From a virus: DNA of 24,607 bases. The position numbers and the translations under genes are program-made. The stretch spans positions 1 through 24,607 of IMG/VR virus record IMGVR_UViG_3300040815_003858; one strand, written 5' to 3'. Under the pieces are notes generated by a model that saw only the letters and a list, made by a program, of their open reading frames with translations, searched no databases and was not told the origin of the DNA. Shown here piece by piece: positions 7,271 through 22,334 of the stretch; position 1 is the stretch's first letter, and each line of letters begins with the position of its first letter.

Positions 7271-8443
7271 GTGGCTTTGATCGCTCAATATCCATCGAAG
7301 GAGAATCCGTTCGTCTCGCTCTACTCCAGGGAGATCAGCGGGGCTGTGCGATATGAGGTGAGATGGAGGGCGGACGGCCGACGCCAGCGCAAGACCTGCA
7401 CCGATCGGGCATCCGCTGAGAAACTCGCTCAACAGCTGTCAGCCAACTTCAAAGCCAACTCGGGCCGGTATCACACCATCACGAACGAGGACTGGCTACT
7501 CCTCCAGAAAGCCAAGCAGCTCGGCGATGCACGCATCGAAGAAGCCCTCCACATGGCCCGTCATCCGAACCGTGCCACCGTATCCGAGCTGAAATCCCGC
7601 TTCCTCGATCACTACAACGACCGGGCCAAACGCACCCATGACGACATCCGGACCAAATTCAACGTCATAGAAGACACCTTCGGCGATCGCTACGTGGACA
7701 CCATCACCGTCGAAGAGATCGAGCACTGGTATTTCCAGCTGCCTGGATCGATCCGCACCAGAAATAATTTTTTGACTGCACTCACTACCTTCCTCAATCG
7801 TGCCAAGGACTGGGATTACCTGCCCCACGATCGCGAGGTGGCAGGTGCCAGGGTTCGCAGAGTCAAGCCGCTACCCAAAGACCCCGGCATCCTCACCCCT
7901 GACGAGGCCACGCAGATACTCCACGATGCAGAGCCCGACCTGATCCCCTACCTTGCCCTCGGAATGTTCGCCGGGATTCGCCCGTCCGAGGCCGCCGGCA
8001 TCATTGGTGATCGAGACGGGATCAAATGGGGCGATCTCGATTTCGACGAGAAAACCATCCGCATCCGCAGAGAAGTCGCCGGCAAACTCGGCCGGCCCCG
8101 GGTCATCGACATGCACCCCACCCTCGAACTGTGGCTGAAACCATTCATCCAGAAACCCGACCAGCCCATCTGCCACCGAACCAGTGGCAACAAACTCACC
8201 GCAGCCAACCGCGAACACCAATGGAAGACCCCATGGCCGCAGGACGGGATCCGGCACTCCTGGGTATCCTACCACTTCGCACGCGATCGAGACATCACCG
8301 CCACCGCCCAACAGGCCGGCAACTCGCCCCAGGTCATCGAAGAATCCTACAACAACCCCCGCTCCAAACGCGAGGCCCTCGAGTGGTTCAGTCTGACACC
8401 CGCCAAAGTAGGACGCCCCCTCGGCAAAATCCGACCCAAATAG
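7271..8443 (+). CDS. int: Tyrosine recombinase / phage integrase
   Basis: This 390-aa site-specific recombinase catalyses integration and excision through a covalent 3'-phosphotyrosine. The N-terminal part (about 10-90) is an arm-binding-like region, residues about 95-190 form the SAM-like core-binding domain (TVSELKSRFLDHYNDRAKRT), and the rest is catalytic. Visible active-site elements are Arg in FAGIRPSEAAG, the second box DGIRHSWVSYHF, where Asp replaces the usual first His, AGNSPQVIEESY, where the usual GH is GN, and the final Tyr in ESYNN. The start is GTG at 7271; the first internal Met would remove much of the N-terminal domain. There is no Shine-Dalgarno sequence. The putative attP core lies just upstream, as is usual. 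Confidence 0.93.
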   Translation: MALIAQYPSKENPFVSLYSREISGAVRYEVRWRADGRRQRKTCTDRASAEKLAQQLSANFKANSGRYHTITNEDWLLLQKAKQLGDARIEEALHMARHPNRATVSELKSRFLDHYNDRAKRTHDDIRTKFNVIEDTFGDRYVDTITVEEIEHWYFQLPGSIRTRNNFLTALTTFLNRAKDWDYLPHDREVAGARVRRVKPLPKDPGILTPDEATQILHDAEPDLIPYLALGMFAGIRPSEAAGIIGDRDGIKWGDLDFDEKTIRIRREVAGKLGRPRVIDMHPTLELWLKPFIQKPDQPICHRTSGNKLTAANREHQWKTPWPQDGIRHSWVSYHFARDRDITATAQQAGNSPQVIEESYNNPRSKREALEWFSLTPAKVGRPLGKIRPK

Positions 8444-14088: not shown

Positions 14089-14985
14089 ATGACTACAGAA
14101 ACCACACCCCACGCCACCGTCCTCGACCACACCAGCGGCCGCGATTGGAACCTCTACCACTCCGACTGCGTCGAGTTTGCCAAATCCCTGCCCGACGACT
14201 CCATCCACCTCAGCGTCTACAGCCCGCCATTCGCTAACCTGTATATCTATTCCGATTCCGTCGCCGATATGGGGAATTGCAAAGACGACGACGAATTCTT
14301 CACCCAGTATCAATACCTCATCCGCGAGAAATACCGCATCACCAAGCCCGGGCGGATCACCTGCGTCCACTGCATGGATCTGCCCATGAGCAAACAAATG
14401 CACGGAGTCGTCGGCCGGCGCGACTTCTCCGGCCGCATCGTCAAAGCCCACGAAGAAGCCGGCTGGATCTTCCACTGCCGAGTCACCGTATGGAAAGACC
14501 CCGTCGTCGAGATGCAGCGCACCAAAGCAGTCGGACTCCTTCACAAACAACTCAAGAAAGACTCCACCCGTAGCCGAATGGGGAACCCCGACTACCTCCT
14601 CGTATTCTTCAAGCCCGGCGAAAACCCCGAGCCCGTCACCCATACCGCCGAAGAATTCCCCGTCGACCAGTGGCAGGAATGGGCCAGCCCCGTCTGGATG
14701 GACATCCGCCAGACCAACGTTCTCAACAAAAAAGGAGCCCGCACCGAAGCCGACGAAAAGCACATCTGCCCACTCCAGCTCGACTTCATCGACCGATGCC
14801 TCGTCATGTGGAGCAATCCCGGCGACATCGTCTTCTCCCCCTTCACCGGCATCGGCAGCGAAGGATACCAGTCCATCAAGCGCGGGCGCAAATTCATCGG
14901 CACCGAGCTCAAGCGCAGCTACTTCGACGAGGCCACCGCCAACCTGCAACTCGCCGAATCCGAGCGCGGCGACTTCTTCCGATAG
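14089..14985 (+). CDS. DNA methyltransferase, beta-class (N4-cytosine or N6-adenine)
   Basis: This 298-aa protein starts MTTETTPHATVLDHTSGRDW with the shared ATGACTACAGA. Motif IV is SPPF (residues 45-48) in SVYSPPFANLY, and the SAM-binding motif I FSPFTGIGSEG (249-259) comes near the C-terminus. The IV-before-I order marks the beta class, and SPPx in place of DPPY favours N4-cytosine methylation, though N6-adenine is possible. It is a solitary methyltransferase without an evident restriction partner, so protection from host restriction is the likely role. It is 12 bp from the helicase gene and probably cotranscribed. Confidence 0.88.
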   Translation: MTTETTPHATVLDHTSGRDWNLYHSDCVEFAKSLPDDSIHLSVYSPPFANLYIYSDSVADMGNCKDDDEFFTQYQYLIREKYRITKPGRITCVHCMDLPMSKQMHGVVGRRDFSGRIVKAHEEAGWIFHCRVTVWKDPVVEMQRTKAVGLLHKQLKKDSTRSRMGNPDYLLVFFKPGENPEPVTHTAEEFPVDQWQEWASPVWMDIRQTNVLNKKGARTEADEKHICPLQLDFIDRCLVMWSNPGDIVFSPFTGIGSEGYQSIKRGRKFIGTELKRSYFDEATANLQLAESERGDFFR

Positions 14986-19442: not shown

Positions 19443-19724
19443 ATGCCCGCCCCGCCCCAGATCGAAGCCGAGATCCGCGAAGTCGCCGGACTCCTCTCCG
19501 CCGAAGACATCACCGGCCCCCGGCGAGAAGAACTCCGCGCCCGGCTCCACCGCATCGCCGATCGACTCCGCAGCCACGAGAGCCCCTACCTCACCATAGC
19601 CGCCGCCGCCCGCCGCTACGGCATCGACCGCAAAGAAATCCGCCACCTCATCGACGTCGGAATCGTCCAGACCGTCACCATCGCAGGACGGGAACGGGTG
19701 GATATGAGGAGCGTGGAGATTTGA
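19443..19724 (+). CDS. Small excisionase/MerR-type HTH protein
   Basis: This 93-aa protein starts MPAPPQIEAEIREVAGLLSA. Residues about 1-45 are helical and charged. Residues 50-93 (YLTIAAAARRYGIDRKEIRH, then LIDVGIVQTVTIAGRERVDM) match the helix-turn-helix plus wing of Xis/MerR-like DNA-binding domains. The short wing and final 'VDMRSVEI' agree with excisionase-type proteins. The gene lies 18 bp after the primase gene, far from the integrase, so whether it is the Xis of this phage is not shown. Its last stretch (ggatatgaggagcgtggagat) departs from the local C-rich codon style. Confidence 0.68.
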   Translation: MPAPPQIEAEIREVAGLLSAEDITGPRREELRARLHRIADRLRSHESPYLTIAAAARRYGIDRKEIRHLIDVGIVQTVTIAGRERVDMRSVEI

Positions 19725-19735
19725 ACGATCAAGAC

Positions 19736-19810
19736 ATGGCATACGAAGGATTGCCAGCAGCGCCTTGTTCTCTCCCGAATTACGATGAAACCCCGAACGC
19801 AGATCAATGA
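19736..19810 (+). CDS. Possible 24-codon ORF upstream of the truncated methyltransferase
   Basis: It encodes MAYEGLPAAPCSLPNYDETP plus four residues, and its TGA overlaps the following ATG as ATGA. It is an orphan in an otherwise empty 80-bp gap. The overlap suggests translational coupling, but a chance ORF is as likely. Confidence 0.22.
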   Translation: MAYEGLPAAPCSLPNYDETPNADQ

Positions 19811-19917
19811 ATGAGTTGGCACTTTTCGCAGGCGCTGGTGGAGGCATCCTTGGGGGAAAAATCCTTGGATGGAAAACTGTGTGCGCCGTCGAATGGGATG
19901 GGGAATCTATTGGCTAA
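19807..19917 (+). pseudogene. Truncated cytosine-C5 DNA methyltransferase (N-terminal fragment)
   Basis: The 36-aa reading frame begins MNELALFAGAGGGILGGKIL and continues GWKTVCAVEWDGESIG before a TAA stop. FAGAGGG is motif I (SAM binding) and CAVEWD is motif II of m5C methyltransferases of the Dcm/HhaI type. The catalytic PC motif IV and everything after are absent; only 64 bp separate the stop from the next gene, so this is a truncation, not a frameshift. It ends in a region with an AT-richer junction and a small palindrome. It may be a relic left when the Mom-like gene was acquired. Confidence 0.85.
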
Positions 19918-19932
19918 CGTTCAGGATGACTC

Positions 19933-19948
19933 ACGCGATTTATCGCGT
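19933..19948. repeat. Palindrome acgcgat-tt-atcgcgt at the truncation junction
   Basis: Seven-base perfect arms around two T, located between the truncated methyltransferase stop and the Mom-like start, 33 bp upstream of the Mom-like ATG. It may be an operator of the modification gene or a remnant of recombination. No poly-T follows, so terminator function is unlikely. Confidence 0.4.
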
Positions 19949-19981
19949 TGATGTCCATCCGTTTGTTATCCCCTTTTTATT

Positions 19982-20653
19982 ATGACAATCGAGCCGATAC
20001 CAACCAAAGACGCCGAACCGTGGCTACTGAAACGGCATTATGCCCGCCGAATGTGTCCCGTGTCCTACGCGTTTGGCGCGTATCGTGGCGGAGAGCTTCA
20101 AGGGGTGGTGACGTATGGAACGCCAGTAAGTTCATCTCTCAGGAAAGGCATAGCGGGGCAAGAATGGGAAAATAATGTCTTAGAATTGAATCGGCTTTGC
20201 TGTGTGAGTGAAAAGAACATGGCGAGCCGTCTCGTAGGGCAATCGTTACGAATGTTGCCAAAGCCTTCGCTGGTCGTGAGCTACGCGGACACGGAGCAGG
20301 GGCATGTTGGCTACATCTACCAAGCCACGAACTTCATTTATACTGGGTTGAGCGCAAAGCGAACAGACTGGAAAATCAAAGGCAAAGAACACCTACACGG
20401 GGCAACCGTGGCAGATGAAAGTAGGGGACAAGAGAACCGCGCGCAGTGGATGCGCGATAAATACGGGGATGACTTTTACCTGGAGGAACGCCCCCGCAAA
20501 CACCGATACGTTTATGCGTGTGGAAACAAGAAACAACGCGCCGCGATGCTGGATGATCTCCGCTACGCGGTGGAACCATACCCCAAGGGCGAAAGCCGCC
20601 GATATGATGCCGACGCTACCATCGAGCTACAAACGACCTTTTTCTTGGGATAA
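19982..20653 (+). CDS. Mom-family DNA modification protein (GNAT-like)
   Basis: This 223-aa protein starts MTIEPIPTKDAEPWLLKRHY. The pattern matches the phage Mu Mom family: the RHYARRMCPVSYAFGAYRGG region, ELNRLCCV, VVSYADTEQGHVGYIYQA, and NFIYTGLSAKRTDWK. Mom proteins are structurally GNAT-like and convert adenine in phage DNA to a bulky N6-modified form (in Mu, N6-(carbamoylmethyl)adenine), which blocks many host restriction enzymes. The gene lies just after a truncated C5 methyltransferase. Its GC content and codon use are lower and more mixed than the early operon, indicating separate acquisition. There is no clear Shine-Dalgarno sequence. Confidence 0.82.
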   Translation: MTIEPIPTKDAEPWLLKRHYARRMCPVSYAFGAYRGGELQGVVTYGTPVSSSLRKGIAGQEWENNVLELNRLCCVSEKNMASRLVGQSLRMLPKPSLVVSYADTEQGHVGYIYQATNFIYTGLSAKRTDWKIKGKEHLHGATVADESRGQENRAQWMRDKYGDDFYLEERPRKHRYVYACGNKKQRAAMLDDLRYAVEPYPKGESRRYDADATIELQTTFFLG

Positions 20654-20687
20654 CAAGTAGCTACACTAACTATTAAAAGTTTCGATT

Positions 20688-21020
20688 ATGCCAAACTCAC
20701 GCTATTTCAGGAAGTTAAGCGAAAAAGGAAGGCGGCTCGCTACGATCCGATGGGAGCGGGAACGGCAACGCATTGAATCAGAAATGCCCGCACGGATTCG
20801 CGAAATGGAATACCTGGAGGCAATCGGGGAATCCGAGATCAAAGCCGGGGATTATATCGGAACTCTGCAATGGCACGGTAGCGACGGGCAGGTCAGGCGA
20901 TGGAGCATTTTCCAGGCGGCGCGCAAGAACCAGATTCAGATACGGGGAATCGACACCGCGAAAACCTGGACCTTTCTACTCGATCGGCTGCGGAGGCATC
21001 TGTCGTGCTACACTCGGTAG
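20688..21020 (+). CDS. Hypothetical basic protein downstream of the Mom-like gene
   Basis: This 110-aa protein starts MPNSRYFRKLSEKGRRLATI. The first 40 residues are strongly basic and helical, followed by a mixed segment (EIKAGDYIGTLQWHGSDGQV) and a helical basic end. No family is recognised; the basic pattern fits a DNA- or RNA-binding role. It belongs to the lower-GC patch with the Mom-like gene and could be a modification accessory or an unrelated moron. It ends 2 bp from the convergent gene at 21023, with no terminator seen between. Confidence 0.5.
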   Translation: MPNSRYFRKLSEKGRRLATIRWERERQRIESEMPARIREMEYLEAIGESEIKAGDYIGTLQWHGSDGQVRRWSIFQAARKNQIQIRGIDTAKTWTFLLDRLRRHLSCYTR

Positions 21021-21326: not shown

Positions 21327-22334
21327 TCAGGCCGTCTTCTTCGCCGTGTGGAACAGCGGCAAGAGCAGGCTCTGCCCCTCCACGATCGGGACGTTCAAGT
21401 GGAGAAACTCCCCCGACTTCGCCACGATCTGCACCGCGTAGCCCGTGCCCCATCCCGTCGGGCTGGTATGACGCCAGAGCGGTTGCTTCGTGCAGAGACA
21501 ACCCGGATTCCAGGCTGCAATCGCGCCCACGTTCGGCAGATCCGTATGCGCCGAGTCGATCCGGTGCGTGTGACCGAAGACCACATTGCCGCCCGCCTTC
21601 TGCAGCGTGACCGATGCCGCGTGCTTGCTCGCGCAGATCCCGTGGACAAACCAGCATTTGCCGAGACGCAGCCACCCGGGGACCGTGGCACCTCGGTATT
21701 TCTCGCCCTCGCGATAGTAGTGGATGCCCCGTTCCTCGATCTTCAGAAGCGTATGCGGACTGATGAGCCGGCGGAGAAACTCCGAATCCTTCCCGTTGCG
21801 GAGCGCCTTCGTCACGCAGTAGGTCTCGACCCGTCGCTCGTGGTTGCCCTCGAGTAGATGAAACTTCGCCCGCGGCGCGATCTCCTGGATCTGGTCGAAA
21901 TGCGAATTCGCCGCGGCCACGTCATCCTCGTAGGTGTAGTCCGTCTCCGCCACGAATCCGAGCGTATGATGCTCCGCGAGGAATCCCCCGCAATCAATCG
22001 AGTCACCCAGGTGAATGATCTCGTCCGGATCCAACCGCTTGATGTCGGCCAATACCGCAGCGAACGCAGCCGGGTCGACCTTGCTTCCGTGCGTGTCCGT
22101 GATGATCACCCGCACCCAGTCCTCCTTCTTTCTCGTGCGCGATCGGGCCGCCGGGATGCGGGCCACCTTCGCCTTTCGAGCGTCGCGCAGCGATTTCTCC
22201 AGTAACTTCGACCGCGCCTGGGTCGCTTTCAGATCCTCCTTCGCATCGGCGAGCTCATCGGCCAGCTTCTGCGCCTTTCGTTCCGCCGGACTCGGCTTCT
22301 TCGTCGTCCGCGAGGTGAGTTTTTGCTTTCTCAT
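21327..22334 (-). CDS. Calcineurin-like metallophosphoesterase
   Basis: This 335-aa protein has a basic coiled-coil N-terminus (about 10-70, AERKAQKLADELADAKEDL), then the metallophosphoesterase fold. Metal-binding motifs are D80-T-H82, GDSID (110-114), GNHE (163-166), VHG (230-232) and GHTH (254-257). The family hydrolyses phosphoester bonds of nucleic acids or nucleotides using two metals. The ATG overlaps the stop codon of the upstream HTH gene by 4 bases. A late-gene position suggests a role with DNA ends or host nucleotides late in infection; the substrate is unknown. Confidence 0.9.
   Translation of the reverse strand: MRKQKLTSRTTKKPSPAERKAQKLADELADAKEDLKATQARSKLLEKSLRDARKAKVARIPAARSRTRKKEDWVRVIITDTHGSKVDPAAFAAVLADIKRLDPDEIIHLGDSIDCGGFLAEHHTLGFVAETDYTYEDDVAAANSHFDQIQEIAPRAKFHLLEGNHERRVETYCVTKALRNGKDSEFLRRLISPHTLLKIEERGIHYYREGEKYRGATVPGWLRLGKCWFVHGICASKHAASVTLQKAGGNVVFGHTHRIDSAHTDLPNVGAIAAWNPGCLCTKQPLWRHTSPTGWGTGYAVQIVAKSGEFLHLNVPIVEGQSLLLPLFHTAKKTA

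Follow-up and report, generated by a model that had tools for sequence, protein, structure and literature searches.

A Mom-like gene and a methyltransferase remnant in a probable phage slot for integron-type gene cassettes

Introduction

How a phage comes to carry an intact DNA-modification gene immediately behind the broken start of another is the question raised by the stretch of viral DNA analysed here (24,607 nucleotides, positions 1 to 24,607 of IMG/VR record IMGVR_UViG_3300040815_003858; hereafter, the window). The first-pass annotation took the locus to be a variable slot where one anti-restriction modification had been replaced by another. In the reading preferred here, to which a probability of about 0.8 may be given, this part of the phage genome is a slot for integron-type gene cassettes, with no detectable integron integrase, in which the Mom-like gene is a cassette behind an attC site (attC-II) and the truncated frame is the remnant of a C5 methyltransferase cassette.

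Integron cassettes have the form GTTRRRY ... RYYYAAC, with crossover points after the initial G and before the final C and with complementary ends, and the integron integrase cuts the folded bottom strand of the attC at the R' box. The features of the window are the following.

14089-14985, + strand: beta-class (N6/N4) DNA methyltransferase of the early operon (PF01555, E 2.2e-19)
19443-19724, + strand: small ORF of the HTH type (93 aa; weak match to HTH_17, E 0.22), which precedes the array and whose stop codon overlaps the R'' box of attC-I
19720-19773, + strand: tentative, degenerate attC-I, TTTGAAC ... GTTCTCT, preceding the stub
19807-19917, + strand: 36-codon stub, in which codons 1-32 (19807-19902) come from a C5-cytosine methyltransferase and the other four are foreign, with stop TAA at 19915-19917
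19903-19911, no strand: junction GAATCTATT, nine bases that separate codon 32 of the methyltransferase from the R'' box, the breakpoint falling within them
19912-19971, + strand: attC-II, with R'' GGCTAAC, a bulged L''/L' hairpin and R' GTTATCC, inside the 64-bp gap between the stub and Mom
19966-20653, + strand: Mom gene cassette of 688 bp with complementary ends TTATCC ... GGATAA, predicted crossovers falling after 19965 (between G and TT) and after 20653 (between AA and C)
19982-20653, + strand: Mom-like DNA-modification protein of 223 aa, its stop TAA lying inside the R'' box GGATAAC
20688-21020, + strand: 110-aa ORF following Mom, matched by neither Pfam nor PHROG and lying, like Mom, in the patch of lower GC (GC 0.55)
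21327-22334, - strand: metallophosphoesterase (Pfam and PHROG), the convergent late gene bounding the slot, with 77-78% protein identity in the related contigs L207 and L208

Several points of the first-pass annotation are borne out by these features, namely a truncated Dcm-type frame that stops before the PC motif, a complete Mom-family gene 64 bp after it, a patch of lower GC (0.52, against 0.62 in the early and 0.60 in the late operon) and a separate beta-class methyltransferase in the early operon. It is possible, as that annotation also proposed, that two chemically different DNA modifications occur in one virion.

Results

An attC site between the stub and the Mom gene

The attC in the gap between the stub and Mom, and with it a likely mechanism of cassette mobility, had been missed in the first pass. 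attC-II shows the features by which attC sites are recognised, i.e., the core boxes and an imperfect L''/L' hairpin with conserved bulges and a covarying stem. In a first alignment of six sites, all 14 hairpin pairs were kept, with nine compensatory pairs, invariant AAC and GTT and conserved bulged bases, and a covariance model (R1) then detected further sites. In the 11-site model (R2), the inner helix was paired at 98.7%, with 16 pairs showing double changes, which was matched by none of 500 shuffles, and the core boxes (...AAC of R'' and GTT... of R') were invariant in all 11 sites. Under a leave-family-out model of five sites (R3), from which the near-identical family of the window's own site had been excluded, attC-II was the top match in 788 kb, at 61.7 bits and E 4.8e-14. 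The bottom strand folds with a z of -3.5, the top strand folding nearly equally well; the 52-bp core from AAC to GTT is 98% identical in L208, and the hairpin is closed by GGCTAAC/GTTATCC in the window and by GGATAAC/GTTATCC in L207. By its architecture attC-II is an integron attC site, and an integron integrase would be expected to recombine it.

The second site, attC-I, scores 17.8 bits under R2 (E 0.0018 in 2.4 kb) and E 0.25 in 788 kb under R3, and its fold is no better than those of shuffles (z -1.1). Both of its ends match those of the site at L207:9233-9292, and the cassette start GTTCTCTCCCGAA is common to the window and the contig L114, where it stands ahead of that contig's own methyltransferase. 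The site at L207:9233-9292 is itself a lone attC amid late genes, remote from the main array of L207.

The window holds, then, one strong and one weak attC, and no integron integrase above the cut-off. An ORF of 390 aa at 7271-8443 gave a weak tyrosine-recombinase match (PF00589, 22 bits against a cut-off of 27.1; TIGR02249, 20.6 bits against a cut-off of 265), and is possibly the phage's own integrase.

The Mom gene as a cassette

The Mom-like gene is full length (Pfam PF25680, E 7.7e-42, 143.7 bits against a cut-off of 27.1, profile positions 3-202 of 202; PHROG 1384, E 1e-53) and its product has 27% identity to the Mom of phage Mu. The likeness between the two lies in this full-length family match and identity; the difference is one of position, given that the Mu gene sits in the com-mom operon, whereas that of the window sits behind an attC. 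The activity of the Mom family (PF25680) is the carbamoylmethylation of adenine in DNA, and the Mom of the window would be predicted to modify adenines in the phage DNA.

The gene has the structure of a single-gene cassette, with complementary ends of the form TTRRRY ... RYYYAA and its TAA in the R'' box. The block at 19912-20655 recurs with 98% identity in L004/L207 between unrelated flanks, and its first part reappears in L005/L206 ahead of another gene. The attC that would belong to the 3' side of Mom is missing from the window and from L207, where the R'' box GGATAAC alone is left, and is present at L206:10339-10397, so the copy in the window looks like a cassette that has lost its 3' attC.

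Perfectly complementary ends were found in 8 of 14 cassettes, with a permutation P of 0.00015 which is only indicative, because the set of cassettes was assembled by hand; with the addition of four cassettes from phage P12002L, the count is 11 of 18. An automatic test of 80 Mom loci returned six with complementary ends against 0.46 expected, these being the window, L004, L005, L010, L009 and L034. The ends at L009 and L034 are probably due to chance, those of L034 falling in coding sequence. About 75 of the 80 Mom relatives have neither an attC nor cassette ends, which makes the cassette state the minority state of this gene.

A variable slot in related phage contigs

The window, L207 and L208 have late genes in common, and differ in what precedes the metallophosphoesterase, the last gene being Mom in L207, a beta-class methyltransferase in L208 and, in the window, Mom followed by two small ORFs. 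The Mom of L207 and the beta-class methyltransferase of L208 each end at an R'' box, after which both contigs continue with the same 65 bp (no more than two differences; L207:3455-3530 and L208:6990-7060), beginning AACAGTTGAAACATCAACTTTTT; this 3' flank is not present in the window. A parallel is provided by P12002L, in which two different last cassettes are each followed by an identical 68 bp (L230:37200-37275 and 29170-29240). The last cassettes of L207, L208 and P12002L have no recognisable attC of their own. In L208, an intact C5 methyltransferase lies upstream of the last cassette, among other genes, and in L103 an intact enzyme of this type forms a complete cassette, GTTATGC ... GCATAAC, with its attC. 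The idea of a slot where one modification replaced another holds, given this, in its first half, the slot being variable; its second half fares less well, as Mom and the methyltransferase look like separate cassettes.

The attC sites of these phages are arranged in arrays, with eight sites in L206 (which carries Mom), five in L207, two in L208 and four in L103, plus one recognised by eye. In L010 an attC stands directly ahead of a Mom that is 75% identical to that of the window, with ends GTTAGCC/GGCTAAC, and in L114 a methyltransferase is cut after GGFPCQDIS and followed by an attC. At least two close attC sites and no integron integrase, the combination that defines a CALIN, were clearly found in L206, L207 and L208 within their records. 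In nine records, each of them possibly incomplete, no integron integrase reached the curated cut-off. Searches of bacterial genome contigs, with a strict attC pattern and with Mom as the query, returned no matching bacterial integron, and the attC array of L206 found no plasmid match and, in phages, only 34-base matches at chance level. A single attC (46.5 bits) was also seen at L216:13411-13471, close to the end of a phage record of 87 kb, where it precedes an ORF whose leader resembles that of the Mom gene of the window.

The strongest alternative to a cassette slot is ordinary phage mosaicism, in which Mom and its leader would have come in through illegitimate or homologous recombination, the hairpin being only a terminator or a regulatory element with an accidental likeness to an attC. 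The 3' flank common to the different last genes of L207 and L208 does hold a terminator-like hairpin, and the Mom of the window has no attC after it, both of which would suit such an origin. It does not account, however, for the features specific to attC sites (the invariant AAC and GTT, the R-box mismatches that track the cassette boundaries and the bulged, covarying L helix), for tandem arrays of up to eight sites, or for complementary cassette ends far above chance, and no terminator-like site was found on the + strand in the region of attC-II. Mosaicism of this kind is, on balance, unlikely, and an integron-type slot remains the preferred reading.

The methyltransferase stub

The frame at 19807-19917 translates as MNELALFAGAGGGILGGKILGWKTVCAVEWDGESIG. 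Its residues 1-31 have 90% identity to the intact C5 methyltransferase of phage ct2t2046, and 32 residues have 94% identity to the intact 383-aa enzyme of the backbone relative L208, to which the DNA is 86% identical across 19803-19901. Motif I of the C5-cytosine methyltransferases (FAGAGGG) and the acidic E29 are found in the stub, the catalytic PC motif and the target recognition domain are missing from it, and no remnant of the enzyme was seen downstream in the window. The profile scores of the frame are low, with the Pfam DNA_methylase match below the cut-off (E 0.026) and PHROG 363 at E 2e-5. In comparison with the orphan phage C5 methyltransferases (PF00145, PHROG 363), the stub is their N-terminus, with the difference that the copy in the window breaks off behind codon 32 and does not reach the catalytic motif. 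The stub is a pseudogene rather than an enzyme. Compared with L208 it differs in 13 codons, 11 of them synonymously, which excludes a chance ORF, indicates a genuine and recent loss of the methyltransferase, and implies that selection acted on this gene until recently.

The homology to L208 stops at 19901-19902 and that to L207 begins at 19912, and the end of the frame lies in the R'' box of attC-II. The box at the start of the stub (GTTCTCT) and that at its end (GGCTAAC) agree at only one of the four variable positions, as would be expected if the two ends derive from different cassettes. The 36-codon frame is best read as a recently decayed methyltransferase cassette, to which a deletion probably fused the terminal part of another cassette; that the stub is a cassette remnant at all leans on the weak attC-I. 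The simplest account of the fusion would be a deletion running from codon 32 to the end of the following cassette, which depends in part on the same weak site. A deletion that linked the stub, which ends at an attC, to the tail of another cassette is a likelier cause of its shortening than a replacement by Mom.

Two other origins of the frame were rejected. An assembly frameshift of an intact enzyme would leave methyltransferase sequence beyond codon 32, of which there is none, and an internal deletion within a single gene finds no counterpart among the sampled methyltransferase C-termini, none of which ends in ...ESIG(stop)TAAC.

The frame might also encode a small protein with a function of its own, or a leader peptide of Mom, kept under selection, as almost all of its differences from L208 are synonymous and its stop codon lies 64 bp ahead of Mom. 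This is very improbable: the synonymous pattern also fits the recent loss of a selected enzyme, in L207 the Mom block, at 98% identity, has an unrelated 86-aa gene in front of it, and none of about 120 sampled copies is a conserved standalone protein of 36 aa, whose existence would have spoken against the reading of the first pass. The search for an intact C5 methyltransferase in relatives, which the first pass had proposed, is answered by the enzymes of L208 and L103. A tblastn search of the phage collection with the whole stub gave nothing at E 0.01, the query being too short.

That codons 31-32 are a recombination hot spot or a homing target, broken with no relation to cassettes, is scarcely credible, since none of the roughly 120 other IMG/VR copies sharing this N-terminus breaks at this codon and the break in L114, which likewise has attC sites nearby, comes much further along, even if one phage, ctn9Y15 (L001, 3000-3335), has its methyltransferase broken at the same codon (31) with no attC nearby. 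The N-terminus of ctn9Y15 runs into an unrelated sequence of 80 aa, and the shared position of the break is probably a coincidence.

Discussion

Phage CALINs are known, and to our knowledge they are few. Clusters of attC sites lacking an integrase were described in phages TJE1, P12002L and PH101, and five of the six attC sites tested from these phages were active with IntI1 (Qi et al. 2023, PMC9892861). Model R1 found two sites between cassette genes in TJE1 (E 7e-5 and 7e-4) and, in P12002L, a weak match (E 0.17) in the gap between two methyltransferases. The locus of the window resembles these published clusters in having a phage-borne attC without an integrase, their cassettes including DNA methyltransferases and the boundary of that of TJE1 showing a terminator-like inverted GTT/AAC motif (PMC9892861). 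It differs from them in its cargo, a Mom-family gene and a decayed C5 methyltransferase, and in its extent, with one strong attC (two if attC-I is counted) and a last cassette without its own attC.

Mom is not mentioned in the main text of PMC9892861, and a full-text literature search for Mom as integron cassette cargo in phages returned only one general review of anti-phage defence. Mom as cassette cargo thus appears to be new within the literature searched, whereas phage CALINs with methyltransferase cassettes have already been published. The gp53 of P12002L is itself a diverged Mom-like protein (30% identity). In this isolated Polaribacter phage (L230, 37305-38816), complementary cassette ends are found at gp53 (GTTACCC/GGGTAAC) and at the methyltransferase gp54 (GTTACCT/AGGTAAC), and an attC-like hairpin lies between the two.

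The presence of an attC before Mom, together with the matching cassette ends, suggests that anti-restriction genes may enter and leave the slot as preformed cassettes. An integron integrase (IntI) supplied in trans, from the host or from a co-infecting element, would cleave the bottom strand of the attC, in its folded form, at the R' box, which may result in the insertion, removal or exchange of cassettes. No promoter-like site was found upstream of Mom on its strand, and the cassettes would therefore be expressed by read-through out of the early operon, after which the modification of adenines in the phage DNA by Mom would block host restriction. The stub would have arisen when a deletion joined codon 32 of the methyltransferase to the last codons and the R'' box (GGCTAAC) of another cassette, since lost.

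A more speculative extension of this mechanism, put forward tentatively and somewhat doubtful as it stands, is that this group of phages keeps a dedicated docking slot free of integrase, bounded by an attC on its left and, on its right, by a constant 3' flank next to the convergent phosphoesterase. An integron integrase borrowed during infection would exchange Mom, beta-class and C5 methyltransferases there at the R boxes. Precise exchange at the R boxes would leave a terminal cassette without an attC of its own, and, if such a slot exists, integrons would keep phages supplied with counter-defence genes.

The interpretation of the locus as a cassette slot explains why a dead methyltransferase stub adjoins an intact Mom, and for annotation it makes the accessory slots of phages worth scanning for attC-like gaps. 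Several phages carry, as the cargo of cassettes, a gene family that serves to evade restriction, with four related Mom copies (the window, L207, L206 and L010) and the diverged copy of P12002L, which points to integrons as a source of phage counter-defence genes.
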